From: an uncultured delta proteobacterium
GTDB taxonomy: Bacteria; Myxococcota_A; UBA9160; JAFDET01
Length of the DNA: 64,000 nucleotides
NCBI GenBank assembly: GCA_947259215.1
Contig: CAMYLJ010000016.1
Location: 1 to 64,000 of the forward strand
Direction: 5' to 3'
Under the pieces are notes generated by a model that worked only from the letters and a program-made list of their open reading frames with translations, was not told the DNA's origin and did no database searches. The position numbers and the translations under genes were made by a program. Positions 8,368 to 58,790 of this stretch are shown here, piece after piece (within the stretch, counting starts at the first letter, position 1; each line of letters starts with the position of its first letter).

Positions 8368-9104
8368 CGGGACTGGGATGGCTGCTCCTGCCCCAGCAGG
8401 CGGTGCCCGACGACGACGACTGGCTGTCTGCGCCCGAGCGGGAGGTCTTGTCGCGGCTGCGCTTCGCGGCCCGTCGCCGCGACTGGCGCCTGGGTCGCTG
8501 GGCGGCGAGGGAGGCGCTTCGCCGCGGACCCGAAGCCTGGCTCGACGGCACGCCGCTCGCGCACGTCGCGATCGTCTCCGATGCGGACGGTGCTCCCCAC
8601 GTGGTGCGGCCGCGGGGTCTCGAGCCGTGCGCGATCTCGCTGAGTCACCGGGACGGGCGAGCCCTGGTCGCGCTGGCAGGCCCCGACGTGCGCGTGGGCT
8701 GCGACCTGGAGCGGATCGAGCCGCGCAGCGACGCCTTCCTCCGCGACTACTTCACGACGGCCGAGGGCCGGCTGCTCGAACAGCGGGGTGCAGACGAGCG
8801 CGACCGCACCGCAAATCTGATCTGGAGCGCGAAGGAGAGCGCGGTGAAGGTGCTCGGGACGGGTTGGCGCGTCGACACGCGCAGCGTCGAGGTGCAGCAG
8901 ATCGGGGAGCCGGGAACTGGCTGGCGTCCGCTGCGGGTGCGCTGCGACGGGCTCCCGCGGCCGCTGGCGGGCTGGTGGCGCCAGGAGGGCGAGCTGCTCG
9001 CCAGCGTGCTGGCGTCGCCGCCGCCGGATCCGCCGCGGCGGCTCGCGGCCCCGGCTACAGGCCGGCCCGCGCCACCCGAGCCAGCTCGTCCACCTTTGCG
9101 ATGA
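8364..9104 (+). CDS. 4'-phosphopantetheinyl transferase, Sfp type
   Basis: The enzyme moves phosphopantetheine from CoA to the serine of carrier proteins. The family signatures are clear: ISLSHRDGRALVALA, the metal-binding VGCDLERIE and the WSAKESAVKVLG motif. Its length, 246 residues, is usual. It starts on an ATG overlapping the carboxylase stop by four bases, so it belongs to the PKS-carboxylase operon and probably activates that megasynthase. The last 40 or so residues are Pro/Arg/Ala-rich and run 50 bases into the convergent Crp-family gene, so the extreme C-terminus may carry no function. Confidence 0.93.
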   Translation: MTGLGWLLLPQQAVPDDDDWLSAPEREVLSRLRFAARRRDWRLGRWAAREALRRGPEAWLDGTPLAHVAIVSDADGAPHVVRPRGLEPCAISLSHRDGRALVALAGPDVRVGCDLERIEPRSDAFLRDYFTTAEGRLLEQRGADERDRTANLIWSAKESAVKVLGTGWRVDTRSVEVQQIGEPGTGWRPLRVRCDGLPRPLAGWWRQEGELLASVLASPPPDPPRRLAAPATGRPAPPEPARPPLR

Positions 9105-9874: not shown

Positions 9875-10750
9875 TCAGTACACCAGCTCCACCCAGCGCC
9901 TGCCGGCCATCAGCTCGGCCTTGCGACGCTCCCACTTCGGCTTGGAGCCGGCCAGGGCCGCGAACACGACGTCCAGCTCCGCGAGCATCTTCTCCAACCC
10001 GGCCACGTAGACGTAGGTCTTCGGGCTCCCGATCATCTCCCACAGCTCCGCGGACCGCTCCTGGATCGCCTCCTGCCAGGCGATGGAATCGCTCCAGCTG
10101 GGGCGCGAGGACAGGGCCCGGAACGCCTCGAAGGTCTCCTCGTCGTAGTACTGGGCGAAGTCGTCGCGCTCGTCGTTCATGTAGAGCATCTCGAGTCCGC
10201 TGCGCGCGCCGTAGAAGAGCCAGACCCGTCCCCGCCAGTCGGGGACGTTGCGGTAGATGTGTTTGACCAGCCCGCGGAATGGCGCGATCCCGGTACCGCT
10301 TCCGATCAGGATCAGGTTGGCGTCCATCTCGTCCGGCACCTCGAAGGGCATCCCGACCGGGCCGCTGATGGTCAGGTCGTCGCCCGGCCGCAGGTCGCAC
10401 AGGTAGTTGGAGGCGACGCCGGGGAATTCCTCGCCGCTGTACTCGTCCATGTAGCTGCAGCGCCGCACGCAGATCTTGATGCGGGGTCTTCCCGCCTCGC
10501 CGGGCTCCGGCAGGTCGGCCACGCTGTAGAGCCGGAAGTGGTGCGCGTGGCCGAACTCCGCGGCCCCGGGGGCGACCACGCCGATGCTCTGTCCGAGCTG
10601 GAACTCGAAGTCGGGGCGGTCCACGTCCAGCACCAGCTCGCGGACCTCGGTCTCGGTCGTCTCGGCCGTGATCCGCTCGCTGGACACGACCGTGGCGCGG
10701 TAGCGCGTACCGCTGTCGTAGTCCGCCAGATGCTTGATGGCGTCGCTCAT
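9875..10750 (-). CDS. Plant-type ferredoxin-NAD(P)+ reductase
   Basis: This flavoprotein would pass electrons between ferredoxin and NADP(H). The FAD motif RLYSVA, the cofactor segment GVASNYLCDLRPGDDLTISG, the pyridine-nucleotide motif GSGTGIAPFRG and a C-terminal aromatic ending (RRWVELVY, compare the WxVEVY ending of chloroplast FNR) all point to the plant-type FNR family rather than to bacterial Fpr or NqrF. I chose the ATG at 10750 because GAGGAGG lies just upstream; the frame stays open further 5' with only low-complexity sequence. It gives 291 residues. It is the last gene of the apbE-rnf-PFOR operon, overlapping the previous gene by four bases, so it probably exchanges electrons with the same ferredoxin pool as PFOR and Rnf. 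A BoxA-like reductase is the main alternative. Confidence 0.88.
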   Translation of the reverse strand: MSDAIKHLADYDSGTRYRATVVSSERITAETTETEVRELVLDVDRPDFEFQLGQSIGVVAPGAAEFGHAHHFRLYSVADLPEPGEAGRPRIKICVRRCSYMDEYSGEEFPGVASNYLCDLRPGDDLTISGPVGMPFEVPDEMDANLILIGSGTGIAPFRGLVKHIYRNVPDWRGRVWLFYGARSGLEMLYMNDERDDFAQYYDEETFEAFRALSSRPSWSDSIAWQEAIQERSAELWEMIGSPKTYVYVAGLEKMLAELDVVFAALAGSKPKWERRKAELMAGRRWVELVY

Positions 10751-10962
10751 CGGAAGTCCTCCTCGGTCTCGGGGGCCAGATCCTCGCAGCGCCGGTCGTT
10801 GCACGCGCCGGCGCCGCAGCCGTGGCAGCCCAGGCGTCCCGCCAGCCCGTCCGGGTCGCCCGCGGCGTCCGGGAAGGCGCGGCGCCACGCCAGCTGGACC
10901 GCCAGCCAGGCCGCCAGCAGCAGCGCGATTCCCGCGAGGCCGACGACGTAGGATGTCAGCAC
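10747..10962 (-). CDS. Small Cys-rich single-pass membrane protein (71 aa), NqrM-like in size and place
   Basis: One N-terminal membrane helix (VVGLAGIALLLAAWLAVQLA) is followed by a short soluble tail with the cysteine pattern C-x2-C-x4-C-x4-C (CHGCGAGACNDRRC). The GTG at 10962 fits because it overlaps the end of rnfA and has GAGG upstream; the stop overlaps the FNR start (ATGA). In Nqr operons a protein of this shape (NqrM) sits next to apbE and helps mature the Fe-S/iron centre between NqrD and NqrE. RnfA and RnfE have the same kind of shared centre. The cysteine spacing differs from NqrM, and Cys-rich FeoB-associated proteins look similar, so an iron-delivery role for Rnf is inference. 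Confidence 0.72.
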   Translation of the reverse strand: MLTSYVVGLAGIALLLAAWLAVQLAWRRAFPDAAGDPDGLAGRLGCHGCGAGACNDRRCEDLAPETEEDFR

Positions 10963-10966
10963 GGCC

Positions 10967-11548
10967 TCATCCTCCCAGCCCGGCAAAGCCCATGAACGCG
11001 ATGGAGAGCAGGCCGGCCAGCACCAGGGACAGCGCCGTGCCTCGTACCACGTCGGGAACGGTCGCCAGCTCGAGCTTCTCCCGCAGCCCGGCAATCAGGA
11101 CCAGGGCCAGGGTGAAGCCCGCGCCGGCGCCGAGCGCGTAGGCGAGGCACTGGGCGAAATCGAAGCCCTTGTTGGTCTGGAACAGCGCCAGCCCCAGGAT
11201 GGCGCAGTTGGTGGTGATGAGCGGCAGGAAGATCCCGAGGGCGCGGAAGAGCGCTGGGCTCGTCTTCTTGATGAACATCTCCACCAGCTGCACCGTGGAC
11301 GCGATGACCGCGATGAAGGAGATCAGGCGCAGGTAGGGTGCGTCGATGGCGACGAGCAGCTGCTGGATGCCGAAGGCGCAGATCGAGCTCACCAACATCA
11401 CGAACGTCACTGCGCCGCCCATGCGCGTGGCGGTGGCCAGCTTGCCCGACACGCCGAGGAAGGGACACAGGCCCAGGAAGTAGGCCAGCACGAAGTTGTT
11501 GATCAGGCAGGCGTTCACGAAGATCGACCACAAGGGCGCGTCGCTCAT
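10967..11548 (-). CDS. rnfA: Rnf complex membrane subunit RnfA
   Basis: A polytopic inner-membrane subunit of the ion-translocating ferredoxin:NAD+ oxidoreductase. The N-terminal signature NNFVLAYFLGLCPFLGVSGK and TTNCAILGLALF identify RnfA rather than NqrE; the Cys in each motif lies where RnfA/RnfE share an iron centre. It has about six membrane helices and 193 residues, the family length. The ATG at 11548 overlaps the rnfE stop (ATGA). It is followed by the 71-residue Cys-rich protein gene. Confidence 0.95.
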   Translation of the reverse strand: MSDAPLWSIFVNACLINNFVLAYFLGLCPFLGVSGKLATATRMGGAVTFVMLVSSICAFGIQQLLVAIDAPYLRLISFIAVIASTVQLVEMFIKKTSPALFRALGIFLPLITTNCAILGLALFQTNKGFDFAQCLAYALGAGAGFTLALVLIAGLREKLELATVPDVVRGTALSLVLAGLLSIAFMGFAGLGG

Positions 11549-12192
11549 CGGGGCGCCTCCAGCGGCTCGGCCGCCCGGGCGCGGCGCGCCGTCACGGCGT
11601 TGAAGACCAGCAGCCAGGCGGCCAGGGTGAAGAATCCCCCGCTCGGCAGGATCATCACGATCCACGGCTGGAAGTCGGCGTGGAAGACCTGGATGCCGAA
11701 CAGGGTGCCGCTGCCCAGGATCTCGCGCACCGCGCCCAGGGAGAAGAGCGCGACCGTGAAGCCCGCGCCCATGCCCAGGCCGTCCAGGAGCGAGCGCCCG
11801 ATCCCGTGCTTCGACGCGAAGGCCTCCGCGCGGCCCAGGATCAGGCAGTTCACCACGATCAGCGAGATGAAGGCGCCGAGGGCCTTGTGCAGGTCGAGGC
11901 TGACGGCCTGGATGGCGTAGTCCACGACCGTCACGAAGGTGGCGATCACCAGGATGTAGGTCGCGATCCGCACCTGCTTCGGAATCACGTGGCGCAGCGA
12001 GGAGATCACCGCGTTGGAGAGGATCAGCACGAAGCTCGTGGCCAGGCCCATGGCCAGCGCGTTGCGCGCGGTGTTGGAGACGGCCAGCGCCGGGCACATG
12101 CCCAAGACCTGGACGAAGACCGGATTGTCCCGCCAGAGTCCCTTCACGAACTCGTCGCCGAGCGCCGGCGTGCCGTGCAGCGGGCCGGTCAT
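11545..12192 (-). CDS. rnfE: Rnf complex membrane subunit RnfE
   Basis: An integral membrane subunit paired with RnfA. GLWRDNPVFVQVLGMCPALAVSN and VVNCLILGRAEAFA are the two conserved Cys-bearing segments of the RnfE/NqrD family. It has 215 residues and about six membrane helices. It starts three bases after the rnfG stop and overlaps rnfA by four bases, within rnfCDGEA. Confidence 0.95.
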   Translation of the reverse strand: MTGPLHGTPALGDEFVKGLWRDNPVFVQVLGMCPALAVSNTARNALAMGLATSFVLILSNAVISSLRHVIPKQVRIATYILVIATFVTVVDYAIQAVSLDLHKALGAFISLIVVNCLILGRAEAFASKHGIGRSLLDGLGMGAGFTVALFSLGAVREILGSGTLFGIQVFHADFQPWIVMILPSGGFFTLAAWLLVFNAVTARRARAAEPLEAPR

Positions 12193-12195
12193 GGC

Positions 12196-12882
12196 CTACG
12201 GGGCCTCCCGGAAGTCGTCGAGGCTGCGCCGGATCCGGGGGACCCACCAGGCGGCGCTCTTGTTCAGGATGTCCGCGATCGCCACCGAGGAGATCGTGGC
12301 GCCGGTGATGCCGTCCACCTGCCAGGCGTGCTCCTTCTCGCCCCGCTTCACCGCCTGGATCGGATTCGCGAGTGCGGACCCGTCCGGAGCCAGCGCGACG
12401 TCGAGTCGCTGGAAGTTGGCGAGGAAGGCCGGGTCGGTCTCGATCCGGTCGCCCAGGCCGGGGGTCTCCCGGCTCTCGAGCACGCGGATCCCGATCACGG
12501 CGTCCTCCGCGAAGGAGTAGCCGTAGAGCAGGCGGATGACGTCCTGGTAACCCATGCCCTCGGCCTCGATCGCCAGCCCCACCAGTCGCTGCTCGGCGTC
12601 GTAGCCGGCATGCACCAGGCGGTCGCCGGGCTGGCCGGCGGCCTCCGTCGGCTCGAAGCGGTCGTTCGCCGCGACCCGGAAGGTCCGGCTCGAGCCCGCG
12701 CCCGGGAGCACCTCGAAGATCGCGCGCCGCAGGGCCTCGGCGCGATTGCGCGCGATCGTGGGGCCGGTCAGCTGGAAGACGCTCACGATCAGCAAACCAC
12801 AGCCCAGGCCGACACCCACCATCGCGCGATACATGTGCCAGGCGCTCGGCGGGCTCTCCTGCACGACCGGGGGGCCGCTCAT
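12196..12882 (-). CDS. rnfG: Rnf complex FMN-binding subunit RnfG
   Basis: One N-terminal membrane helix (residues 18-40) anchors a periplasmic FMN domain. The motif DGITGATISSVA near residue 193 is the site where ApbE attaches FMN to a Thr; an apbE gene heads this same operon. It has 228 residues, and the ATG at 12882 overlaps the rnfD stop (ATGA). It relays electrons between the RnfC/B and RnfD/A/E parts of the complex. Confidence 0.93.
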   Translation of the reverse strand: MSGPPVVQESPPSAWHMYRAMVGVGLGCGLLIVSVFQLTGPTIARNRAEALRRAIFEVLPGAGSSRTFRVAANDRFEPTEAAGQPGDRLVHAGYDAEQRLVGLAIEAEGMGYQDVIRLLYGYSFAEDAVIGIRVLESRETPGLGDRIETDPAFLANFQRLDVALAPDGSALANPIQAVKRGEKEHAWQVDGITGATISSVAIADILNKSAAWWVPRIRRSLDDFREAP

Positions 12883-13904
12883 CGCGGAGCTTCCTGGGCC
12901 GTCGCGCCGTAGACCCGGGGACGGATCCAGCGGTCGAGGTGGATGGTGCAGGCGTTGGCCAGCAGGATCGCGTACATCACGCCCTCGGGCATTCCGCCCC
13001 AGACCCGGATCACGACCACGAGCATGCCGATCCCGGCTCCGTAGAGCAGGCAGGCGCCGGACGTCATCGGCGAGCCGACCATGTCGGTCGCCATGAAGAC
13101 CGCGCCCAGCATCAGGCCGCCGGAGAAGAGCATGAAGGTCGGCGACGCGTAGGTCTCCGGATCCAGGCCGTGCAGCGCGCCGGAGAACGCCGCGACCGCG
13201 GCGAAGATGGCGACGGGAATCTGCCAGCTCATCATGTTGCGCGCCACCAGATACGCGCCCCCGACCAGGATCAGCAGGGCGCTGGTCTCGCCGGTGGATC
13301 CGCCGATGAAGCCGAGGGCCAGCTCGCCGACCTCGCTCGCCTGGCGTTCGAACTTCCAGAGCGCCAGCGGGGTTGCGCTGGTCACCGCGTCGTAGAGCGG
13401 ACGGGTGAAGGGAAGGGTGAGGGTCGAGGAGCCGAGCGCCGTGAAGCGATCGCTCGTGAAGGCGGGGCTCCAGGTGGTCATCGCCACGGGAAACGCGGCC
13501 TGGAGGAAGGCCCGGCCCACGAGAGCCGGGTTGAAGGGGTTGCAGCCGAGTCCGCCGAAGAGCGCCTTTCCCAATGCCACGGCGACCACGCCGCCCACCA
13601 CGACCATCCACAGCGGCAGCCCCGGCGGCAGGGTCAGGCCGTAGAGGAGCCCGGTGATCGCCACCGACCAGTCGCCCAGGCTGGAGGCCCTGCCCGAGAG
13701 CCGGCAGGCCACGCGCTCGGTCAGCAGGCAGGTGACGGTGGCCGTCGAGAGCACGAGGAGCGCGGCCAGGCCGAACGCGTAGACGGCGAAGGCCGTGACG
13801 GGGAGCAGCGCGACCACGACGTTGAACATGATCGTGTCGACGCTGTAGCCGCTGACCATGTGGGGCGACGTGCGGATCTCGAGCGTGCGGGCGGGAGCGG
13901 TCAT
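12879..13904 (-). CDS. rnfD: Rnf complex membrane FMN subunit RnfD
   Basis: A 341-residue polytopic membrane subunit with nine or so helices. GCNPFNPALVGRAFLQAAFP is a family signature, and TSATPLAL near residue 175 is the FMN-Thr attachment motif used by ApbE. The ATG at 13904 overlaps the rnfC stop by four bases. It is thought to be the main ion-translocating element together with RnfA, E and G. Confidence 0.95.
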   Translation of the reverse strand: MTAPARTLEIRTSPHMVSGYSVDTIMFNVVVALLPVTAFAVYAFGLAALLVLSTATVTCLLTERVACRLSGRASSLGDWSVAITGLLYGLTLPPGLPLWMVVVGGVVAVALGKALFGGLGCNPFNPALVGRAFLQAAFPVAMTTWSPAFTSDRFTALGSSTLTLPFTRPLYDAVTSATPLALWKFERQASEVGELALGFIGGSTGETSALLILVGGAYLVARNMMSWQIPVAIFAAVAAFSGALHGLDPETYASPTFMLFSGGLMLGAVFMATDMVGSPMTSGACLLYGAGIGMLVVVIRVWGGMPEGVMYAILLANACTIHLDRWIRPRVYGATAQEAPR

Positions 13905-15238
13905 CCGTGGGCCCCCGCCTTGCGCACCGCCGCCTTGGCGAACCGGAACTGCTGCACCAGCGGGATGTGGGAGGGGCAGACGAAGGAGCAGGACCCGCAC
14001 TCGAAGCAGTCCATCAGGTGGAACTCGTCGGCCATGCGCGCGTACTCCTGGCTCCGGGCCAGGCTGCCGAGCTGGGCCGGATCCAGGCGCATCGGGCAGG
14101 CGTCCAGGCAGTAGCCGCAGCGGATGCAGGGGTAGACGGTCCGGTGGCTGCGCTCGGCACGCGTGGCGTCGAAGGCCACCACGCCGGAGGTGCCCTTGGT
14201 GATCGCGATGTCCAGGCTCGGCGCGGCGGCGCCCATCATCGGGCCGCCCAGGAAGACGCGCGTCACGTCCTCTTCCACGCCCACCTCGCCCAGCAGGAAG
14301 CGGAGCGGCGTCCCGATCGGGATCCGGTAGTTGCCCTTGTGCTGGACGGCCGGCCCCGTGATCGTGATGACGCGCTCCTGGATGCCCCGGCCGTGGGGCA
14401 GGAGGCGGCCGATCTCGGCGGTGGTCGCCACGTTCACGCACAGGGCGTGCACGTCCAGGGGAAGGCCGCCGGAGGGCACCTCCCGCCCGAGCAGGGCCGA
14501 GATCAGCATCTTCTCGGCGCCCTGCGGATACTTGACCCGAAGCACCTCGACCGAGGCCGACAGGTCCCCGGGCAGCCCGCTCCGCAGGTGCTGGGCAGCG
14601 TCCGGCTTGTTGGCCTCGAGCGCGACGATCGCGCGCTCGGCTCCGGTGACCTTCAGCAGGTAGCGGATGCCGGTGAAGACGTCGTCGCGCTGTTCGAGCA
14701 TCACCCGGTGGTCGGTGGTGAGGTAGGGCTCGCACTCGGCGCCATTGATGATGAGCGTGTCCACGTGACGCTCCGGCGGGATTCGGAGCTTGGCGTGGGT
14801 GGGGAACCCCGCTCCCCCGAGCCCCACGATCCCCGCGTCCTGGATCGCGGCGACGATCTCCTCGGGCGTCGCCGATGCGAGCGGGCACGGTGTGCCCTCC
14901 ATCACCTCCTGGGTCGAGCCGGGCTGCGGCTCGAGGAACACGGCCGGGACCATCCTCCCGCTGATGCTGGGCGTCGGCCCGATGCTCTTCACCGTTCCCG
15001 AAGCGGGCGCGTGCATGGAGACCGACATGAAGCCGTCGGGACGCGCGAGGCGCTGGCCCCGCACGACCGTCTCTCCCTCCCGCACCAGCGGCAGCGAGGG
15101 CTTCCCCAGGTGCTGCACCAGCGGCACGATGAGGAGCGGCGCGAACGGGAACTGGCGGATCGCCAGGCCGCTCGTCTCGTCCTTGGCTTCCGGCGGGTGG
15201 ATGCCGTGCCGGAAGCTCTTGAGCCCCAGCGAGATCAT
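13901..15238 (-). CDS. rnfC: Rnf complex NADH/Fe-S subunit RnfC
   Basis: A 445-residue peripheral subunit that binds NAD(H) and FMN. The N-terminal barrel-sandwich region and the Gly-rich FMN/NADH segment GLGGAGFPTHAK (near 137) with NGAECEPYLTTDH resemble complex I NuoF. Two ferredoxin clusters lie near the C-terminus: CIRCGYCLDACP (about 370) and CFECGSCSFVCP (about 409). The start has GGGAG eight bases upstream and lies 16 bases after the PFOR stop. It lacks the long Ala/Lys tail of enterobacterial RsxC. Confidence 0.96.
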   Translation of the reverse strand: MISLGLKSFRHGIHPPEAKDETSGLAIRQFPFAPLLIVPLVQHLGKPSLPLVREGETVVRGQRLARPDGFMSVSMHAPASGTVKSIGPTPSISGRMVPAVFLEPQPGSTQEVMEGTPCPLASATPEEIVAAIQDAGIVGLGGAGFPTHAKLRIPPERHVDTLIINGAECEPYLTTDHRVMLEQRDDVFTGIRYLLKVTGAERAIVALEANKPDAAQHLRSGLPGDLSASVEVLRVKYPQGAEKMLISALLGREVPSGGLPLDVHALCVNVATTAEIGRLLPHGRGIQERVITITGPAVQHKGNYRIPIGTPLRFLLGEVGVEEDVTRVFLGGPMMGAAAPSLDIAITKGTSGVVAFDATRAERSHRTVYPCIRCGYCLDACPMRLDPAQLGSLARSQEYARMADEFHLMDCFECGSCSFVCPSHIPLVQQFRFAKAAVRKAGAHG

Positions 15239-15254
15239 GCGCGAGCTCCCGCCG

Positions 15255-18200
15255 CTAGTTGTACTTCTCGCCGCGCTTGATCCACTTCTCGATGTCCTTC
15301 TCGCCGCGATCCCGGGGAAGCCCCGGGTGGATCACCTGGGCCGTGCAGCGCTCCGCCGCCTTCACCAGGTCGCGGTAGGGTCCGCCCTTCGGATCCTTGA
15401 TGACGGCCTTGCGGTTCTCGTTGTAGGCGAAGATCTGCGGGTTGAGGTCGACGCACTCGTCGCAGGCGGTGCAGTCGTCGGTGTCGATCCAGGGCGCCAT
15501 GGCGTCGCCCCCCGCCGCCGGTGCCTCGCCGGCGGTCTCGGTCACCGCCACCGGCGCGGCGACCAGCCCGGCCAGTGCATCGCCGGCGTCGCCCTCCGCT
15601 CCGGCCAGCTGCATCAGCCCGCTGGTGATGCGGCCGACCACGTCCCTCCGCACCTCCTCCTCGATCGCCTCGCGGGAGATCTCGGGCTCGCCGACGCCGG
15701 CCAGCGATCGCAGCAGGGTCCAGAAGTCGCGTCGGTCCTCGCAGGACTCGACCATGGGCCGGGCCACCAGCAGCCGGCTCAGCTGCTGCTTGCGGTCCAG
15801 CGACCACAGGTAGGGGAAGCGCCCCTCGCGTTCGTCCTCGGGCAGCTCCAGGAACTCGGCCAGCGGCAGCATGTTCTCGTTCCAGGTGTCGGGCGGCGCC
15901 ACCCGGAAGTGCTTGCGGAAGCGGACCTCGCTGATGGCGAAGTCCGCGAAGGTCAGAGGCAGCTCCATCTCCTTCTCGCGGCCGCCCTCCTTGTAGCGGA
16001 GCGTGTAGCGGGGCCAGTCCTCTGCCGGAGCCGGGTTGCCCTCCAGGTCGAAGCACTCGTCCGGGGTCTTGCCGGCGTCCGGGTCGTAGCGGAAGAGCGG
16101 ATAGGCGCGCGACTCGACGGCCAGCTTGGCCTGGTGGGCGCTCATGTCGTCGCCGATCCCGTGCTCGGGCTGGCAGGAGCTGTAGAGGTTGAAGAGGGCG
16201 GGGCGCCTCGCCTTCAGGCCCCGGACGAATCCCTCGATCATGTGGCTCGGGTGGGCGATCGTGCTCTGCAAGATGTAGGTCGTACGGTGGGCCATGCCGA
16301 TCAGGCCGATCTCCTTGCGCGGCTCCTGCTTGCCCTGAATGGCCTTGCCGTACTGCGCCATGTCGGAGATCTGGCCGACGAAGCCCGATGTGCAGGCCTG
16401 TCCGCCCGTGTTCGAGTAGACCTGGGTATCGACCACCAGCGACTTGATGGGCTTCCCCGAAGCCATGAGACGCGAGAGGTTCTGGAAGCCGATGTCGTAC
16501 ATGGCTCCGTCGCCGCCGACGGCGACGACCGGCGGGCACAGCTCCCACTCCTCGTCGCTGAACTGCTGCCAGTCGAAGTAGGTCATGAACTCGTCGTGCT
16601 CGGCCGGGTTGTAGCCGCCGGCCAGCTCCAGCTCGGCCGTGCGGATGGCCCGGAAGCCCTCCGCCATCCGGGCCATGTGCCCTTCGAAGACGCCCATGGC
16701 CAGCGACGGAGCGTCCTGGAACAGGTGGTTCGCCCACGGGAAGGGATAGGGATTGAAGGGGTAGGTGCTGCCCCAGACCGACGTGCAGCCGGTGGCGTTC
16801 AGCATCCCCAGCTTCGAGCGCCCGCGGCCGGTGGTCCCTTCCTGGTAGCGCCAGCGCAGCTCCTTCAGCTTCGCGAGCAGCACGGTCATCCGCTGCAGCC
16901 ACTCGGGGTCGATGGGCTCACCCCCGCCCATGCGCTCGGCGATGTCCGAGAGCGTGACGTCGCGATCCCCGATGCTGCGCACGGCCTTCGTCATCGCGGA
17001 GGGGTCCCCCACGTTGATATCCTGCACGAGCTTGAGCTGGACGTGCTTCTCCAGCCGCGCGATCAGCTCGCCGAGGCGCTCGAGGTGCCGGGCGATGCGC
17101 GGCTGCATCAGGGCCTCGACCGTCGCCACGAACAGGTGGATGGCGGTCTTCTCCGAGCAGCCCAGGCAGGCTCCGTCGCCGCTGCTGAACGACAGGTAGT
17201 TGGTTTTGTCGAGCAGGATCGTCTCGAGGGCGCCGATTCCCTCCTCCAGATCGTCCACCCGGATGTACTTCCCCGGCGTGTTGGGCAGGTCCAGCCAGAA
17301 GTCCCACTGCTTGCGAAGCTCATCCACGGACTCCCGGGTCTGCGTCAGCGGGCGCAGGGCGTCGTCGTCGCAGACTTCCACACACTCCCCGCAGCCCTTG
17401 CAGGTGTAGGGGTCGACGGTGATGGAGAACAGTCCCCCGGCTCCGGCCTCCTTCTTCTCCGGCAGGGTGTAGAAGGGCCGCGACAGGGCGAAGGAGAACC
17501 CGCCCAGCTCCTCGCGGAAGAGGTCGAACTCCTTGCGCAGCTGCTGCTTGTCGGCGTCGTCGAGGTCGCTCTGCCGGAGGGTCTGCTCGATCGCCTCCTC
17601 GAGCATGCCGTCCACGGAATCGGTCTCCTGGGCTGCGTTCAGCAGCCCGCGGAGATGGCGTTCGAGCAGGCGCACGGCCCGAGGCAGGTGCTCCACGTCG
17701 TGCCCGTGCTTGCGCAGGCGCTTCACGACGGTGTCGAGCACCTGGCCCACCTCGTTCACCAGGCCGGGGATGGCCGTGTCCGGGCACACCGTGTAGCAGT
17801 TGCCGCAGGCCGTGCAGTTCTCCGGGATCCACTCCGGGTGCTCGAAGCGGATCTGGGTCATGTCGCGGAAGAGGGACGTGCTGGCGGGCATCACGCCGAG
17901 TCCGATGAAGGGATCGGTGATGTTGTCGTTGCCCATGCCGCGCGCGTAGAAGCTCCCCGTCTGCTCCCAGAAGCGGTGGACGTCGGTGATCGGAGCCTGG
18001 CTCTGGGGCAGACGCTCCACCATCACCGGAAGCGCCGGGCCGCCGGCCGCCCGCGCATCGGCCTCCTTCTGTTCGCTCACGGCGTCGGGCTTGAGCTCGA
18101 GGATCTCGTCGAAGCCGCGCTTCACCACCCGCACGTTGTCCGCCACCACCCGCGCGCCCTTGGTGCCGAACTTGTGCTGGAGCTGGTCCTCGATCGCGGT

Positions 18201-20186
18201 CAGGAGCCGCGCCTCGTCCAGTCCCGCCTGCTGCATCACCGGCGAGGCGGCGAAGAAGGCGCCCTGGAAGGCGATCCCCTGCATGCGCAGCTGGAGGTCC
18301 GGGTCGCTGGCCTCTTCGCGGGCGATCCGGAACGCGTCGAGGCAGAAGACCCGGATCTTCTTGTCGAGGATGATCTTCTGGAAGGGCCTCGGGATCTCCT
18401 CCCAGGCCTTCTCGGCGGACGGGCGATCGCTCTGCATCACGAAGACGCCGCCGGGCTTCAGGCCCGCCAGTGCGTTGGTGTGCTGGAAGACGTTGGGATC
18501 GGGGGACAGCACCACGTCCACGTGGAAGTACTCGCAGTTCACGCGGATGGGCTCGGGCGCCGCCGAGAGGTAGTAGGTGGTGGGCTGGCCCTTCTTCTCC
18601 GAGCCGTACTTGGGGTTGGCCTTGATGTGGTAGCCGAGCAGGTCGAAGAGGGTCATCGCCAGGTTCTTGCCGGTGGTGATGGCGCCCCAGCCGCCCACGG
18701 AGTGGAAACGCACCGTGATGCTCCCATCGGGCATCAGGTCCGGGTTCTCCGAGCCCCGCACGGCGAGCTCCCGCACGTGGGGGTAGGCGTCCTCGATCGT
18801 CTGCTGGTGGATCTCCTGCTTGGGCGTGATCGGCTCGTCGCGCAGGAAGTCGATCGAGAGGTAGAACTGCCGCTTGTGCCTGCCGTCGGGCAGCATGTTC
18901 TCGACGGCGCCGATGATGCCCTCGGGCTGGAGGTCCCGGCTGCCCAGACCGAAGCAGCCCGAGTAGAGCTCCGGCGCGTCGCGCAGCTCCCAGCCGGGAA
19001 GCTCGGGATGCACGGCGCCGTCGCGGGCGCGGCCGTTCTCCAGGCAGCGGGACACGGTCGCGCGGATCTCGCGCATGAGCGGCAGGTCCACCGCTAGCGG
19101 CTGATCCAGCCGCTCCAGCACCGCCACCGCCCGCTTGCCCTTCAGCAGCCGGCCCACCTGGTCGGCAGGGAAGGGCCGGAACATGGCCATGTCGACCACG
19201 CCCAGCCGAACGCCGCGGGTCTCGCGCAGATGGTCCGCCACGGCTTCGGCGCTGGGCAGGATGCTGCCCTGGCCCAGGATCAGGTACTCGGCGTCGTCCG
19301 CCCGGTAGTCCCGCACCCGGGAGTAGGCGCGTCCGGTCAGCTCGGCGAACTCCGCGAAGGCCCGCTCGGTCAGCTCCTGGATGTGGTCGAAGAAGAAGGG
19401 GCGCTGGGCGGCGACGCTCTGCATGTAGGCGTCCTGGTTCTGCACGAGACCCGCCATCACCGGGTTGTCCACGTCCCAGAGCACGGGGATCCGCCGCCGC
19501 TCGTCGCCGTAGAGGATGCGCTGGGCGGGCGTCGGGGTCTCGATCATGTCGTCCGGGCGGCCCAGGTACTCGGCGATCAGCTCGCGCTCGGGCACGAGCA
19601 TCGACTCGATCAGGTGGGTGGTCAGGAAGCCGTCCAGGGCCACCACGCCCGGGTTGAGGGAGAGCTCCGCGATCCGATGCGCGATGATGTTGAAGTCCGC
19701 CGCGCTCTGGGCGTCTTTGGCGAAGAGCTGGAAGAAGCCCGTGTCGTCGATGCAGTGGTAGTCGTCGTGTCCGGCGTGGACGTTCAGGGTCGCCTTGGTC
19801 ATGGCGCGGGCGCCGATGTTGAGCACGTAGGTCAGGCGCTTCCCCACGGCCGCATAGAGCGACTCGTGCATGTAGGCGATGCCCTGGCCGGAGGAGAAGT
19901 TGGCGGCGCGCAGGCCGGTCATGGACATGCCCGCCGTGAGGGCGGCGGCGGCGTGCTCGCCCTCGGGCTCGACGAAGATCAGGGGACGCCCGGAGATGTT
20001 GATGTGCCCCGCCGCCGCCGCCTCGGCCCAGTACTCGCCCATCTGGGTAGAGGGCGTGATGGGATAGGCGCCGGCGGCGTCGCTCGATTCGCGCTCCGCC
20101 ATGATGACGGCGGTATTGCCGTCCATGGCGGCGCGCACGCCGGGGTACTTGGCGTCGGGGCTGTCGTGCTTGCTGCGACCGAACAT
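15255..20186 (-). CDS. nifJ: Giant pyruvate:ferredoxin oxidoreductase with extra C-terminal ferredoxin domain (1643 aa)
   Basis: It converts pyruvate and CoA to acetyl-CoA, CO2 and reduced ferredoxin, possibly reversibly. The N-terminal AYPITPSTQMGEYW, the gamma domain (VGGWGAITTGKNLA), two 4Fe-4S sites (CTACGNCYTVCP about 790; CKGCGECVEVCD about 929), the proximal cluster segment GACLGCSEKT and the TPP motif GDGAMYDIGFQNLSR (about 1224) are in the standard order. Usual length is near 1200; this one has about 130 residues between the two ferredoxin sites, further inserts around the cluster/TPP part, and a C-terminal Ala-rich linker plus a ferredoxin-like module CTACDEC near 1572. ATG 20186 has GGGAGA upstream and clears the rnfB stop by 19 bases; an in-frame ATG at 20219 lies inside rnfB. 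It sits between rnfB and rnfC, so its product ferredoxin is made alongside its consumer. Confidence 0.95.
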   Translation of the reverse strand: MFGRSKHDSPDAKYPGVRAAMDGNTAVIMAERESSDAAGAYPITPSTQMGEYWAEAAAAGHINISGRPLIFVEPEGEHAAAALTAGMSMTGLRAANFSSGQGIAYMHESLYAAVGKRLTYVLNIGARAMTKATLNVHAGHDDYHCIDDTGFFQLFAKDAQSAADFNIIAHRIAELSLNPGVVALDGFLTTHLIESMLVPERELIAEYLGRPDDMIETPTPAQRILYGDERRRIPVLWDVDNPVMAGLVQNQDAYMQSVAAQRPFFFDHIQELTERAFAEFAELTGRAYSRVRDYRADDAEYLILGQGSILPSAEAVADHLRETRGVRLGVVDMAMFRPFPADQVGRLLKGKRAVAVLERLDQPLAVDLPLMREIRATVSRCLENGRARDGAVHPELPGWELRDAPELYSGCFGLGSRDLQPEGIIGAVENMLPDGRHKRQFYLSIDFLRDEPITPKQEIHQQTIEDAYPHVRELAVRGSENPDLMPDGSITVRFHSVGGWGAITTGKNLAMTLFDLLGYHIKANPKYGSEKKGQPTTYYLSAAPEPIRVNCEYFHVDVVLSPDPNVFQHTNALAGLKPGGVFVMQSDRPSAEKAWEEIPRPFQKIILDKKIRVFCLDAFRIAREEASDPDLQLRMQGIAFQGAFFAASPVMQQAGLDEARLLTAIEDQLQHKFGTKGARVVADNVRVVKRGFDEILELKPDAVSEQKEADARAAGGPALPVMVERLPQSQAPITDVHRFWEQTGSFYARGMGNDNITDPFIGLGVMPASTSLFRDMTQIRFEHPEWIPENCTACGNCYTVCPDTAIPGLVNEVGQVLDTVVKRLRKHGHDVEHLPRAVRLLERHLRGLLNAAQETDSVDGMLEEAIEQTLRQSDLDDADKQQLRKEFDLFREELGGFSFALSRPFYTLPEKKEAGAGGLFSITVDPYTCKGCGECVEVCDDDALRPLTQTRESVDELRKQWDFWLDLPNTPGKYIRVDDLEEGIGALETILLDKTNYLSFSSGDGACLGCSEKTAIHLFVATVEALMQPRIARHLERLGELIARLEKHVQLKLVQDINVGDPSAMTKAVRSIGDRDVTLSDIAERMGGGEPIDPEWLQRMTVLLAKLKELRWRYQEGTTGRGRSKLGMLNATGCTSVWGSTYPFNPYPFPWANHLFQDAPSLAMGVFEGHMARMAEGFRAIRTAELELAGGYNPAEHDEFMTYFDWQQFSDEEWELCPPVVAVGGDGAMYDIGFQNLSRLMASGKPIKSLVVDTQVYSNTGGQACTSGFVGQISDMAQYGKAIQGKQEPRKEIGLIGMAHRTTYILQSTIAHPSHMIEGFVRGLKARRPALFNLYSSCQPEHGIGDDMSAHQAKLAVESRAYPLFRYDPDAGKTPDECFDLEGNPAPAEDWPRYTLRYKEGGREKEMELPLTFADFAISEVRFRKHFRVAPPDTWNENMLPLAEFLELPEDEREGRFPYLWSLDRKQQLSRLLVARPMVESCEDRRDFWTLLRSLAGVGEPEISREAIEEEVRRDVVGRITSGLMQLAGAEGDAGDALAGLVAAPVAVTETAGEAPAAGGDAMAPWIDTDDCTACDECVDLNPQIFAYNENRKAVIKDPKGGPYRDLVKAAERCTAQVIHPGLPRDRGEKDIEKWIKRGEKYN

Positions 20187-20205
20187 GGCATCTCCCAGCG
20201 TGGGC

Positions 20206-21060
20206 TCAGGTGGGCGCATCGTGCAGCGCGCCCTTGCGGATGATCTTCGTGGCGGCAGGCCCCTTGACGGGGCCGACCTCCGGGTCGAGCCAGACGATGG
20301 CCCCGGTGGGGCAGCGCTGGATCGCGTCGCGGTTCGGGCGCCGGGCGGGATCCACCAGCGGCAGGTTTCCCTGCATGCGGACGGACTCCGGCGCGTCCAT
20401 GGCGCAGCGCCCGCAGGCGGTGCAGCCGACCTGGCAGTCCTCGAGCATCTCGTCGCCCGCCAGCAGCGAGCTGCAGGCGACCCACACGCGCCGGCTCACC
20501 GGCCGCAGCGAGAAGAGGTCCTTGGGGCAGGCGTCCACGCAGTCGCCGCAGGCGGTGCAGGCCTCCTCGTCCACCACCGGCAGCTCGTGGGCGTCCATGC
20601 GGATGGCGTCGAAGTCGCAGGCTGCCTCGCAGTCTGCCAGCCCGAGGCAGCCCCAGAAGCAGCCCTTGCCCCCGCCGGCCACCTGGGCCGCTGCCCGGCA
20701 CGACGGCAGCCCGTCGTAGCGTGCGTGATTGCGGGCCACGTTGGAGCCGCCCGCGCAGGCGAGTCGCGCCACCCGCTTCTCTTCGCTCCCCACGTCCACT
20801 CCGAGGAAGTCGGCGATGTAGGCTCGCTCGGCCTCGCTCCCCACGGTGCACTTGCCCGGCGCGGCCTCGCCCGCGACGAGCGCCTCGGCGAAGGGGCGGC
20901 AGCCCGGGAAGCCGCAGGCGCCGCAGTTGACGTGGGGCAGCATGTCCTCGACGAGGTCGATGCGCGGGTCCTCGGCCACGTACAGCGTGCGGTTGGCCAG
21001 CACGAGCAGCGAGGCCAGCACCAGGGTCAGCCCAGCGAGCGCCGCGACTCCCGTCAGCAT
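20206..21060 (-). CDS. rnfB: Rnf complex ferredoxin-docking Fe-S subunit RnfB
   Basis: An N-terminal membrane helix (1-25) is followed by the Fe-S domain NCGACGFPGC near residue 46 and two ferredoxin-type clusters (CTACGDCVDACP near 167 and CTACGRC near 212, the latter with its last ligand supplied by RCPTGA). Other cysteines around CFWGCLGLADCEAACD are family-typical. It has 284 residues. It lies directly after apbE (two-base gap) and before the PFOR gene, separated from rnfC, unlike the common rnfABCDGE or rnfCDGEAB orders. It receives electrons from reduced ferredoxin. Confidence 0.95.
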   Translation of the reverse strand: MLTGVAALAGLTLVLASLLVLANRTLYVAEDPRIDLVEDMLPHVNCGACGFPGCRPFAEALVAGEAAPGKCTVGSEAERAYIADFLGVDVGSEEKRVARLACAGGSNVARNHARYDGLPSCRAAAQVAGGGKGCFWGCLGLADCEAACDFDAIRMDAHELPVVDEEACTACGDCVDACPKDLFSLRPVSRRVWVACSSLLAGDEMLEDCQVGCTACGRCAMDAPESVRMQGNLPLVDPARRPNRDAIQRCPTGAIVWLDPEVGPVKGPAATKIIRKGALHDAPT

Positions 21061-21062
21061 CC

Positions 21063-22103
21063 TCACGCTCCGATCACGTGGAAGCCCGAGGTTCGCACGA
21101 CCTCGAGCTGCTTGGTGACCAGGTAGCCCTCGCAGTCGGGCAGGTCCTCCAGCAGCGCGCGGCCGCGAACCGGCCCGAGCACCATCACCAGGGTGGCCAG
21201 GCCGTCGGCCGTCGCGGCGTCCGGCGCCAGCACCGTAGCGCTCGCCAGCTCGGGTGCCGAGCGGCCCGTGCGGGGATCGAGGATGTGGTGCTGGGCGTAG
21301 TCCGGCGTGAAGGGCTGCATGTAATCGCCCGAGGTGGCCACCGCCCGGCTGCGGGCGTCGAAGCGGGCCTCGAGGGCCGGGCCGTGGCGCGGGTTGCGGA
21401 TCCCGAGGCGCCACGGCGTGCCCGCGCCCTTGTCGCCGCTGGCCACGAGATCGCCGCCCGCCTCCACCAGCACGTTGGCGAAGCCGCGCGCCACGAGCGC
21501 CGAGACGCCGCCGTCCACCACGTAGCCCTTGGCGATGCCGTCGAGCGTGATGGAGAGGTCGGGGCGCGTGCGCGTGACGCGGCGGCCCTCGATCCGGAGG
21601 GCGCGCTGGTCGACGCGCTCGAGGGCGCGCTCGACGGCCTCTGCCGTCGGCAGGCTCGCCGGCGGCTCGCGCCGGCGCCGGTAGAGGTCGAGCAGCGGCT
21701 GGATCGAGACGTCGAAGCCGCCGTCGCCCAGGCGGTGGATGCGCTCCGCCAGGCGCAGCACGTCGAGCAGGGCCGTGGAGGCGTCGTCCACGCGCCCCTG
21801 GCGGTTCAGGCGCGACACCTCGCTGTCGGCGCGGTAGCGGCTCAGCAGCGCCTCGAGCCGGGCCATCTCGCGGAGCGCCGCCTCGGCGGCGGCCGCCGCC
21901 GCGTCCCGGTCCGGGCCGAGCACGGTCAGATGCACATCGGTTCCCATCAGGACACGGGAGCGCGACAGCGGCTGGGCGCGGCCCAGCGCGCCCAGACCCC
22001 ATCCCGCTCCCGCCACGCCTCCGATGGCCAGGATGCGCAGCGCGTCGCGGCGCGTGAAGCGCCCGCGACCCACCGACCCCTGCGCGCGAACTCCCGAGCC
22101 CAA
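21063..22103 (-). CDS. apbE: FAD:protein FMN transferase (ApbE), Tat-exported
   Basis: It attaches FMN covalently to Thr in RnfG and RnfD, both encoded downstream in the same operon. A twin-arginine leader (RRDALRILAIGGVAGAGWG) precedes the enzyme, which has MGTDVHLTVLG, the ITLDGIAKGYVVD metal/FAD segment, EAGGDLVASG and HILDPRTGRSAPELASATVLAPDA. It has 346 residues. The start is TTG at 22103, supported by AGGAGG five bases upstream; no ATG is better placed. It is the first gene of the rnf operon. Confidence 0.93.
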   Translation of the reverse strand: MGSGVRAQGSVGRGRFTRRDALRILAIGGVAGAGWGLGALGRAQPLSRSRVLMGTDVHLTVLGPDRDAAAAAAEAALREMARLEALLSRYRADSEVSRLNRQGRVDDASTALLDVLRLAERIHRLGDGGFDVSIQPLLDLYRRRREPPASLPTAEAVERALERVDQRALRIEGRRVTRTRPDLSITLDGIAKGYVVDGGVSALVARGFANVLVEAGGDLVASGDKGAGTPWRLGIRNPRHGPALEARFDARSRAVATSGDYMQPFTPDYAQHHILDPRTGRSAPELASATVLAPDAATADGLATLVMVLGPVRGRALLEDLPDCEGYLVTKQLEVVRTSGFHVIGA

Positions 22104-22201: not shown

Positions 22202-22237
22202 ACGCACGCCGGCGCCGCCGGGCGCGGCGGCGTGCGT
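22202..22237 (-). terminator. GC-rich hairpin at the dikinase stop codon
   Basis: ACGCACGCCG pairs with CGGCGTGCGT around an inner GCGCC/GGCGC stem with a two-base bulge. The structure begins at the stop codon of the pyruvate phosphate dikinase gene. There is no T-run. With the 10-bp inverted repeat next to it, it suggests that the dikinase and apbE-rnf transcripts are separate. Confidence 0.5.
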
Positions 22238-24981
22238 CACTCTTCCCGGCAGGCGAGGGCCGCGTGCGCCGCCGCGAGCCGCGCGATGGGCACCCGGAAC
22301 GGCGAGCACGACACGTAGTCCAGGCCCAGGCGGTGGCACAGGGCGATGCTCTCGGGATCGCCCCCGTGCTCGCCGCAGATCCCCACCTCCAGCTCGGGCC
22401 GGACGCGACGGCCCAGGGCGATCCCCATCTCGATCAGCTTGCCGACGCCGTCGGGATCGATCGTCGCGAACGGGTTCGCCGGCAGGATGCCTTGCTTGAT
22501 GTACTGCATCAGAAAGCCGGCCTCGGCGTCGTCCCGCGAGATGCCGAAGGTGGTCTGGGTCAGGTCGTTGGTCCCGAAGGAGAAGAACTCGGCCTGCTCC
22601 GCCAGCTGATCGGCGGTCAGCGCGGCCCGCGGGACCTCGATCATGGTCCCGAAGCGGTACGCGATCTTCAGCCTCTGCTCGTCCAGCACCGCTCGGGCCT
22701 CGGCCTCCAGGGCCGTGCGCTCGACCTCGAGCTCCTTGACGTGGGTGACCAGGGGGATCATGATCTCTGGCTGCACCTCGATCCCGTCCCGGGCGCACTG
22801 GCAGGCGGCCTCGAGCACGGCGCGGACCTGCATGCGCGTCAGGTCCGGGATCAGGATGCCGAGGCGCACGCCCCGCGTGCCGAGCATCGGGTTCGTCTCG
22901 CGCAGCGCCGTGACCCGCTCCAGGAAGTCCTGCTTCACGCGGATCTCGTCCAGGGCCTGGTCCATCTCGCTCATGGTGTGCATGTGCTGGAGGCGCACCT
23001 TCAAGTCCGCCAGGTCCTGGATCAGCTCGTCGTAGGCCGGCAGGAACTCGTGCAGCGGCGGGTCGAGCAGCCGGATGATGACCGGCAGGCCGTCCATGGC
23101 GGTGAAGAGGCCCGCGAAGTCGGCCCGCTGCAACGGGAGCAGCTCGGCGATGGCCTCCAGCCGCTCGCTCGGCGACTTGGCCAGGATCATCCGCTGCACG
23201 ATCTCGAGGCGCTCCGACTCGAAGAACATGTGCTCCGTTCGGCACAGGCCGATGCCCTCGGCGCCGTGGGCCCGGGCGCGGTCGGCGTCGCGTTCGTAGT
23301 CCGCGTTGGCCCGCACGCCGAGCCGGCGGAACTCGTCGGCCCAGCCCAGCAGCGTGAGCAGCTGGGGGTTGGAGAGGTCGGGCACCACCGTCGCCAGCTG
23401 GCCCAGGTGCACCGTCCCGTCGGTCCCGTCGATGGAGAGCCAGTCGCCTTCCTTGAGCACCTGGTCGCCCACGCTCAGCTCGCGCTCGTCCAGGTCGATC
23501 TCGAGCGCCGCGACGCCCACCACGGCGGGCTTGCCGAACTGCCGCGCCACCAGGGCCGCGTGGCTGGTGCGGCCCCCGCGCTGGGTGAGGACGCCCTTGG
23601 CGGCCAGCATGCCGTGCACGTCGTCGGGTTTCGTCTCGGGGCGCACCATGATCACGTCCCGGCCGTCGGCCGCCCAGCGCTTCGCCGTGTCGGCGTCGAG
23701 CGCGATCATGCCGACCGCCGCGCCCGGGGACACGTTGAGCCCCCAGGCCAGCGGCTTCTGGGCCTTGCGCACCGCGGGGTCGAGCTGCGGGTGCAGGAAG
23801 AAATCCACCTGGTCGGGGCTCACCCGGAGGACCGCTTCCTCCCGCGAGATCAGGCCTTCGTTGGCCATCTCGACGGCGATCCGCACCTCGGCCTGGGCGG
23901 TGCGCTTGCCGTCGCGGGTCTGGAGCAGCCAGAGCCTTCCCCGCTCGATGGTGAACTCCATGTCCTGCATGTTGCGGAAGTGCGTCTCGAGGCGATTCGA
24001 GATCTCCGCGAGCTGCGCGTACTGCTCGGGCATCTCGCGCTCGAGGTCGCGCAGGGAGTGGGTGGCGCGGATGCCGGCGACCACGTCTTCCCCCTGGGCG
24101 TTGACCAGGAAGTCCCCTTCCAGCGCGTTCTCGCCGGTCGAGGGGTTGCGCGACATGGCGACGCCGGTGGCGCTGTCGTCCCCCGTGTTGCCGAATACCA
24201 TGGCCTGTACGTTCACGGCGGTGCCCAGGTCGTGGGGGATGCCGGCGGCCTCGCGGTAGTCGATGGCGCGCTTGCCGTTCCAGGAGCTGAACACCGCGGC
24301 GGTGGCCATGCGCAGCTGTTCGCCGGGATCGCCGGGGAAGGGCTCGCCGGTGTGGTTCCGGACGATCTGCTTGAAGCGACCGGTGAGGGCGCGCCAGTCC
24401 TCGCCCGAGAGCTCGGCGTCCGTGGTGACACCGGCGGCGGCACGTCGCTCGTCGATCGCCGCCTCGAACGGCTCGTCCGGGACCTTTAGCACCACGGCGG
24501 CGAACATCTGCACCAGTCGCCGGTAGAGGTCGTAGACGAAACGGGCGTCGCCGCTGGCCTCCACCATTCCCGCCGCCACGTCGTCGTCCAGCCCGATGTT
24601 GAGGACCGTGTCCATCATCCCGGGCATCGAGAACTTCGAGCCGGATCGGCACGACACCAGCAGCGGCGTGCGCGGATCGCCGAAGCGCCGGCCCGTCGCC
24701 TTCTCGACATCCTCGAGGGCTGCGAGGACCTGGTCCCACAGGCCCGGAGGAAACTCCTCACCTGCCGCCAGGAAGGCGTTGCAGGCGTCGGTGGTGACGG
24801 TGAAGCCCGGCGGTACCGGCGCGCCGAGTCGGGTCATTTCCGCCAGGTTGGCGCCCTTGCCGCCGAGCAGGCCGCGCACGGCATCCCAGTCGCCGCCCAA
24901 CCGGGCTTCCGCCGCGTCGAGCTGACTGAAGCGGTAGACGTACGTGGGCGCCGCATCGGCGCGTGCGGACTCCGAGGCCAT
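22237..24981 (-). CDS. ppdK: Pyruvate, phosphate dikinase
   Basis: It interconverts pyruvate + ATP + Pi and phosphoenolpyruvate + AMP + PPi. The N-terminal ATP-grasp part (GGKGANLAEM, SCRSGSKFSMPGMMDTVLN), the phosphohistidine motif GGRTSHAALVAR (His about 473) and the PEP domain with GIGLCRTEHMFF and the C-terminal catalytic Cys in GICGEHGGDP (about 868) are all intact. It has 914 residues. The ATG at 24981 has AAGGAGAT at good spacing. It lies just upstream of the apbE-rnf-PFOR operon on the same strand, so it could draw on pyruvate made by PFOR running in reverse; that link is inference. Confidence 0.97.
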   Translation of the reverse strand: MASESARADAAPTYVYRFSQLDAAEARLGGDWDAVRGLLGGKGANLAEMTRLGAPVPPGFTVTTDACNAFLAAGEEFPPGLWDQVLAALEDVEKATGRRFGDPRTPLLVSCRSGSKFSMPGMMDTVLNIGLDDDVAAGMVEASGDARFVYDLYRRLVQMFAAVVLKVPDEPFEAAIDERRAAAGVTTDAELSGEDWRALTGRFKQIVRNHTGEPFPGDPGEQLRMATAAVFSSWNGKRAIDYREAAGIPHDLGTAVNVQAMVFGNTGDDSATGVAMSRNPSTGENALEGDFLVNAQGEDVVAGIRATHSLRDLEREMPEQYAQLAEISNRLETHFRNMQDMEFTIERGRLWLLQTRDGKRTAQAEVRIAVEMANEGLISREEAVLRVSPDQVDFFLHPQLDPAVRKAQKPLAWGLNVSPGAAVGMIALDADTAKRWAADGRDVIMVRPETKPDDVHGMLAAKGVLTQRGGRTSHAALVARQFGKPAVVGVAALEIDLDERELSVGDQVLKEGDWLSIDGTDGTVHLGQLATVVPDLSNPQLLTLLGWADEFRRLGVRANADYERDADRARAHGAEGIGLCRTEHMFFESERLEIVQRMILAKSPSERLEAIAELLPLQRADFAGLFTAMDGLPVIIRLLDPPLHEFLPAYDELIQDLADLKVRLQHMHTMSEMDQALDEIRVKQDFLERVTALRETNPMLGTRGVRLGILIPDLTRMQVRAVLEAACQCARDGIEVQPEIMIPLVTHVKELEVERTALEAEARAVLDEQRLKIAYRFGTMIEVPRAALTADQLAEQAEFFSFGTNDLTQTTFGISRDDAEAGFLMQYIKQGILPANPFATIDPDGVGKLIEMGIALGRRVRPELEVGICGEHGGDPESIALCHRLGLDYVSCSPFRVPIARLAAAHAALACREE

Positions 24982-58787: not shown

Positions 58788-58790
58788 GTC

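Follow-up and report, generated by a model that had tools for sequence, protein, structure and literature searches.

A conserved operon combining a ferredoxin-fused PFOR-like protein, the Rnf complex and a plant-type ferredoxin-NAD(P) reductase in at least six bacterial phyla

Pyruvate:ferredoxin oxidoreductase (PFOR) and the Rnf complex are usually regarded as tools of anaerobes, which are joined only by diffusing ferredoxin. Electrons from pyruvate are passed to NADP by the pyruvate:NADP+ oxidoreductase of Euglena and Cryptosporidium, and in Helicobacter by a route consisting of pyruvate oxidoreductase, flavodoxin and FqrB. In a stretch of 64,000 nucleotides from an uncultured delta proteobacterium (contig CAMYLJ010000016.1, positions 1 to 64,000; guanine plus cytosine content 72%), which is referred to here as the window, the gene for a PFOR-like protein (hereafter POR) lies inside an rnf operon that also encodes a plant-type ferredoxin-NAD(P) reductase (FNR). 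The host genome has a size of 5.7 Mb, and related genomes are recorded mainly under Myxococcota and in some cases under Deltaproteobacteria. The locus has in common with the Euglena/Cryptosporidium enzyme and the Helicobacter route that pyruvate electrons would reach NADP by means of a dedicated flavoprotein reductase, but in this case the reductase is encoded on its own, as a plant-type FNR, and the electrons would have a second, ion-pumping exit to NAD.

Other described systems resemble individual parts of this locus. The single-chain PFORs (viz. those of Desulfovibrio africanus, 1b0p, and Moorella, 6cin, and NifJ) share with the window POR their domain content, the thiamine site and the ligands of three clusters, whereas the window protein shows only about 25% identity to them in the aligned fold, is more than 400 residues longer, has two helical insertions, is fused to a ferredoxin that contains a fourth cluster, and scores below the cut-off of the NCBIfam PFOR equivalog TIGR02176. 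The Rnf complex of the Chlorobi/Bacteroidetes type shares the six subunits, the cofactor motifs and the BCDGEA gene order (PMC4014512); however, in the present operon POR is found between rnfB and rnfC, the genes for a small Cys-rich protein and FNR are located behind rnfA, and in many Bacteroidota carriers rnfB is present behind FNR. The Na+-NQR operon of Vibrio cholerae, which includes ApbE and NqrM (PMC12174285), similarly places an FMN transferase and a small Cys-rich membrane protein beside an ion pump, but here the pump is Rnf, the Cys-rich protein has no PF04400 match, RnfB is present and there is no NqrF. Each of these enzyme families is already known, and what appears to be new is their conserved union in one operon, together with the fusion of a ferredoxin to POR; no description of a POR inside an rnf operon or of a ferredoxin-fused POR was found in the open-licence full texts searched, although a prior mention elsewhere is possible. 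With its fused ferredoxin, the operon links PFOR, Rnf and an exit to NADP in Bacteroidota, Planctomycetota, Gammaproteobacteria and Myxococcota, and we consider it somewhat more probable than the contrary that it constitutes one functional ferredoxin hub, net oxidative in direction, in which POR feeds both Rnf and FNR.

Gene content of the operon and its conservation across phyla

The genes of the operon and those flanking it were identified by profile searches against Pfam and NCBIfam, and in the case of FNR by comparison with solved structures. All are on the minus strand and are listed in the order in which this strand is read:

22237..24981, minus: ppdK, pyruvate, phosphate dikinase (TIGR01828, 1225.6 bits)
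21063..22103, minus: apbE, FAD:protein FMN transferase (Pfam ApbE domain PF02424 over its cut-off, 241.5 bits)
20206..21060, minus: rnfB, long multi-cluster type (PF04060; TIGR01944, 87.7 bits against a cut-off of 68.7)
15255..20186, minus: POR, PFOR-like, 1643 residues, with two helical insertions and a C-terminal ferredoxin (POR_N, PFOR_II, POR, Fer4, TPP_enzyme_C; 6cin/1b0p by sequence and fold)
15258..15500, minus: C-terminal part of POR comprising the fused ferredoxin domain and a conserved tail, approximately residues 1563-1643 (1dax by sequence, 1fxr by fold)
13901..15238, minus: rnfC (TIGR01945, 484 bits)
12879..13904, minus: rnfD (TIGR01946, 321 bits)
12196..12882, minus: rnfG (PF04205; TIGR01947, 88 bits, below the cut-off of 102)
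11545..12192, minus: rnfE (TIGR01948, 248 bits)
10967..11548, minus: rnfA (TIGR01943, 237 bits)
10747..10962, minus: small Cys-rich membrane protein, 71 residues (alignment of 31 homologues; position between rnfA and FNR)
9875..10750, minus: plant-type ferredoxin-NAD(P) reductase (8hfq PetH, E 2.2e-44)
9055..~9783 (start approximate), minus: Crp/Fnr-family regulator downstream of FNR (PF00027, PF13545)

If the start of POR is taken at the ATG at 20186, the junction gaps range from -4 to +19 bp along the whole operon (apbE-rnfB +2, rnfB-POR +19, POR-rnfC +16, rnfC-rnfD -4, rnfD-rnfG -4, rnfG-rnfE +3, rnfE-rnfA -4, rnfA-Cys-rich gene +4, Cys-rich gene-FNR -4), and a purine-rich GGAG-like site precedes nearly all of the starts. 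The gene order running from apbE to FNR and the tight junctions, which had been noted in a preliminary description of this DNA made from the sequence alone, are thus borne out by the profile matches and the measured gaps. In a promoter and terminator scan, which is uninformative at a guanine plus cytosine content of 72%, one weak promoter-like match and one terminator-like match were observed, both within ppdK, and none between the operon genes.

A scan with one genome per species revealed 567 stretches encoding relatives of POR, of which the best 80 were taken with their flanks. Together with loci from related genomes these gave 92 non-redundant PORs, and in 78 of these the sequence extends 1.5 kb or more beyond POR. 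Directly behind POR, rnfC is found in 77 of these 78 loci, at a distance of at most 300 bp in 74 cases and of at most 400 bp in the 3 others, and the sole exception is an orphan POR without rnf (L090:9974-14887) that lies between transposase-like, TIR-like and TPR genes. FNR is present behind rnfA within 800 bp in 60/66 loci, and the median spacing is -4 to +12 bp at most of the junctions from POR to FNR. The linkage of POR and rnfC is seen in Myxococcota, Acidobacteriota, Planctomycetota, Calditrichota, Gammaproteobacteria and Bacteroidota, and the order rnfB-POR-rnfCDGEA-(Cys)-FNR in at least six phyla, where single phylum assignments of uncultured bins, which may hold foreign contigs, weigh less. 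The cultured carriers include Marivirga, Algoriphagus, Aquiflexum, Cecembia, Fulvivirga, Flammeovirga, Rubripirellula and Methylomicrobium sp. wino1. The position of rnfB varies, as this gene immediately precedes POR in 38 loci, whereas 21 loci, mainly of Bacteroidota, have it behind FNR. A chance rearrangement confined to a single genome, which the preliminary description had named as the outcome that would speak against a joint operon, is ruled out by the recurrence of this order in the 77 loci, and the comparison of gene order around POR and rnf that it had called for shows the arrangement to be kept across these phyla.

Genes flanking this core are more variable. In the window genome ppdK precedes apbE on the same strand at a distance of 133 bp and is a possible first gene of the unit; however, it adjoins the operon in only a few relatives and is outside of the conserved core. 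ApbE adjoins the operon in about 8 loci, and a Crp-type regulator is found behind FNR on the same strand in 10. Both ppdK and the Crp-type regulator may belong to the unit in the window genome. Genes for KorAB-like 2-oxoacid:ferredoxin oxidoreductases are present near the operon in 14 loci (e.g. L049, L050, L051, L062, L111, L120 and L130), upstream of it in a clade of 53% identity and downstream in Bacteroidota, and these neighbours fit a wider module for ferredoxin-based carbon oxidation, although they are themselves reversible. Loci with the Bacteroidota-type order encode, directly upstream of POR, a conserved protein without a Pfam match that is about 119 residues long (L130:9614-9970 and 19 other loci), and a Calditrichales locus (L085) contains two adjacent rnf clusters, with POR in only one of them. 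A search of plasmids gave no record with a relevant match.

The genes of the operon also tend to be inherited together. Among 284 genomes of the phylum, a POR match (E <= 1e-120) is present in 24, a strong RnfC in 56 and both in 20 (Fisher p 2e-12); of the four genomes with POR but without RnfC, one has its POR at a contig end, one contains a split gene and two have PORs that are only 38-40% identical. In a set of 61 relatives RnfC is found in 16 of the 17 POR genomes. A related POR that is split into two genes (of about 803 and 615 residues), with no rnf found nearby, is seen in two cases (G023:C182 and G054:C194; L052, L053). When pairwise distances on the gene trees are compared, POR and FNR show correlations of 0.75-0.94 with the Rnf genes, as strong as those of the Rnf genes among themselves (0.69-0.87), and the values are less than 0.25 after shuffling. 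However, correlations of this kind can also arise from shared species history, and a clearer case is provided by the methanotroph Methylomicrobium sp. wino1. Since its POR, encoded on a complete chromosome, is nested with full support within the Cyclobacteriaceae and its operon shows the Bacteroidota gene order, these sequences point to a transfer of the whole operon between phyla.

It could be argued that such an operon is a neighbourhood of convenience, in which anaerobic functions are co-regulated but electrons are not handed over directly, each enzyme being served by soluble ferredoxin from elsewhere. The parts are individually known and ferredoxin-dependent enzymes are encoded elsewhere in the genome, as this explanation would have it, but the order persists across phyla, the operon has apparently been transferred between phyla and the ferredoxin fused to POR is invariant, and we consider this explanation very improbable.

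The POR protein and its fused ferredoxin domain

The window POR is 1643 residues in length, as compared to about 1170-1230 for standard PFOR. Its domains POR_N, PFOR_II, POR and TPP_enzyme_C and the ligands of its proximal cluster place it in the 2-oxoacid:ferredoxin oxidoreductase superfamily, in which it is filed as a PFOR-like subfamily and not as a TIGR02176 equivalog. Because the PFOR cut-off is missed, the assignment of pyruvate as the putative substrate is based on the domains and the aligned residues, as POR aligns with PFOR through the catalytic regions. In comparison to the Moorella PFOR, it contains one insertion between the two central clusters, a second insertion behind the second of these clusters and about 200 additional residues at the C-terminus. 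The C-terminal half was modelled with AlphaFold2 (mean pLDDT 79), and the predicted fold is that of PFOR (6cin, Z 24).

In 89 aligned PORs, including those of the 53% identity clade, 16 Cys residues are conserved at 100%. Of these, 12 are canonical, viz. eight at the two central clusters and Cys 1007, 1010, 1134 and 1338 at the proximal cluster, and the other four are Cys 1572, 1575, 1578 and 1614, which form a predicted fourth [4Fe-4S] site within the fused C-terminal ferredoxin domain. This domain matches Desulfovibrio ferredoxin I (1dax) by sequence (whole-query E 1.1e-6), and its model superimposes on D. africanus ferredoxin I (1fxr) with a Z of 9.7 and a root-mean-square deviation of 1.7 A over 62/64 residues (TM 0.83 to the target). 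Ferredoxin I is known as a partner of PFOR in D. africanus. Between rnfB and FNR the window contains no gene for a separate ferredoxin, and due to this the fused domain is the natural candidate for the electron carrier; conversely, its presence may account for the lack of such a gene in the operon. The protein had been described beforehand as a PFOR, and its domains and fold uphold the assignment to the pyruvate-oxidoreductase family; however, it is not a standard PFOR but a divergent form with the carrier built in.

The Rnf subunits, FNR and the Cys-rich protein

All six subunits of Rnf (RnfA, B, C, D, E and G) are encoded in the operon, and the conservation of motifs in them was judged across 72-78 relatives. 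The flavinylation motif DgITGATIsS of RnfG is invariant, RnfD contains a conserved flavinylation-type motif D..(S/T)(G/S)ATPL, paired intramembrane Cys are conserved in RnfA and in RnfE, the Cys motifs of RnfB are invariant across 75 relatives, and RnfC has retained its NADH/FMN site and two ferredoxin motifs. The complex is a putative ion-coupled ferredoxin:NAD+ oxidoreductase.

The solved structures nearest to FNR are the cyanobacterial and chloroplast enzymes, and the plant-type features are present in it, viz. the FAD and NAD(P) domains, the motifs RLYS, SNYLCD and GTGIAPFR and the invariant C-terminal Tyr. The site for the 2'-phosphate of NADP is only partly conserved, and the specificity of FNR for NADP, although likely, is putative.

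The small protein encoded between rnfA and FNR consists of a single N-terminal hydrophobic helix followed by a Cys-rich tail. The consensus of 31 homologues is LAGRxxCGxCGCxxxC, from which the window member departs (CHGCGAGAC), and no family match for the window member was found in Pfam and NCBIfam. NqrM is required for the [2Fe-2S] cluster of Na+-NQR (PMC12174285). The Cys-rich family shows the anatomy of NqrM, viz. one N-terminal helix, a CxCxxxC tail (CVCIKKC in the NqrM of Methylomicrobium) and a gene located behind the last gene of the pump, but PF04400 (NqrM) is unmatched in the window member, in all 31 homologues and in the operon in 15 genomes. Membership in NqrM is likewise unsupported by profile comparison, though only two NqrM sequences were compared. 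Hence, the protein is NqrM-like in its anatomy and position, while sequence tests show no kinship. The preliminary description had recognised this gene and its position, and it can now be added that it probably encodes a maturation factor of the Rnf/Nqr type, as suggested by the NqrM-like anatomy. In Rubripirellula obstinata a fusion protein of ApbE and NqrM adjoins an nqrF-like gene (L174:1489-2829).

The linkage of FNR to the operon is almost as tight as that of POR, and both pyridine nucleotide exits have one carrier in common. This would agree with an energy-linked transhydrogenase, in which Rnf, driven by the gradient, takes in NADH and passes electrons by way of ferredoxin to FNR, which gives out NADPH, while POR serves as an overflow valve on the ferredoxin pool. 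However, the gene kept beside rnfC is POR and not FNR in all clades, also in the 53% identity clade, which lacks FNR, and the ferredoxin is fused to POR, and thus we hold a transhydrogenase of this kind to be decidedly unlikely.

Proposed electron flow and host metabolism

In the hub that we favour, POR would use coenzyme A to split pyruvate into acetyl-CoA and CO2, releasing two low-potential electrons, which would pass from the thiamine site through the three internal [4Fe-4S] clusters to the fourth cluster in the fused ferredoxin domain. From this domain they could leave either through RnfB and the remainder of Rnf, with NADH and an ion gradient as products, or through the plant-type FNR, with NADPH as product. 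ApbE would attach FMN to RnfG and RnfD, and the Cys-rich protein may aid the assembly of the intramembrane [2Fe-2S] cluster of RnfA/RnfE. The unit would be an energy-conserving, NADPH-giving companion of pyruvate dehydrogenase (PDH), probably at low oxygen, and the net oxidative direction is preferred because the NADP reductase drains reduced ferredoxin. The earlier proposal of a dedicated pyruvate-ferredoxin redox unit is well supported by the conservation across phyla, the co-occurrence of POR with Rnf, the correlated trees and the operon transfer. A more far-reaching possibility, which we regard as doubtful, is that POR docks on Rnf by means of its fused ferredoxin, resulting in a membrane-bound, ion-pumping pyruvate:NAD+ oxidoreductase with FNR as a switchable NADP branch; if so, a pyruvate-driven respiratory ion pump would be spread among oxygen-respiring bacteria.

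Several observations weigh against a net oxidative hub. The score of POR against TIGR02176 is 405.9 bits, where the cut-off is 911.35; the 53% identity clade has no FNR behind rnfA; in the NADP 2'-phosphate site of FNR the Ser is kept, but the Arg is shifted by one position and the Lys/Arg and Tyr are replaced; other ferredoxin-dependent enzymes are encoded in the host genome; and the PDH of the host and the E2-type genes of other carriers make the need for an oxidative POR not obvious. The host encodes a complete lipoate PDH (E1 alpha, E1 beta, E2 and E3), and due to this POR is additional to PDH in this genome. E2-type genes are found in all 12 other carriers searched, several of them cultured, and thus all 13 genomes searched carry components of lipoate-type 2-oxoacid dehydrogenases. 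A replacement of PDH by POR is rejected for the host by its full PDH and is weakened for the 12 others by their E2-type genes. The host also has two heme-copper oxidases, one of which is the cbb3 oxidase in the window; ccoN and ccoO of this high-affinity type are at 57198-59513 on the plus strand.

A reductive unit is a serious rival. In this case, Rnf would run in reverse, spending the ion gradient to reduce ferredoxin with NADH, and POR would join CO2 to acetyl-CoA as a pyruvate synthase, opening a way from acetate or fatty acids into gluconeogenesis by means of the adjacent ppdK. In the host, which also has the heme-copper oxidases, PDH already provides for pyruvate oxidation, as the E2-type genes do in the carriers; ppdK is directly upstream; a true isocitrate lyase is absent from the host and from 7/12 named carriers searched; and reverse Rnf is established in Azotobacter (PMC12174285). 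However, FNR would drain the reduced ferredoxin upon which such a synthesis depends, and ppdK is outside of the conserved core. Further, isocitrate lyase is present in 5/12 of the named carriers and is absent in nearly the whole order whether or not the operon is present, and the contrast in the glyoxylate shunt is therefore non-discriminating as a test of direction. We think the reductive unit rather unlikely.

If the oxidative hub is correct, its carriers gain an ion gradient at the step from pyruvate to acetyl-CoA and can choose between NADH and NADPH, and the energy yields in their metabolic models would change. Marivirga, Algoriphagus, Rubripirellula and Methylomicrobium are cultivable carriers in which direct coupling of PFOR and Rnf can be tested.

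Genes of lipid metabolism are also located in the window. A single-chain acyl-CoA carboxylase is encoded at 2722-8367 on the plus strand (biotin carboxylase, biotin carrier, a weak ACC_central match and carboxyl transferase), the ACC_central match resembling the arrangement of eukaryotic ACC, and it is followed by a phosphopantetheinyl transferase at 8364-9104; both of these are also present beside the operon in one relative (L037). A wax ester synthase/diacylglycerol acyltransferase at 28117-31023 on the minus strand is close to POR, FNR and the carboxylase. Genes related to acetyl-CoA, NADPH, malonyl-CoA and storage lipid are thus found within 30 kb, which is reminiscent of wax ester fermentation, as a local observation only.

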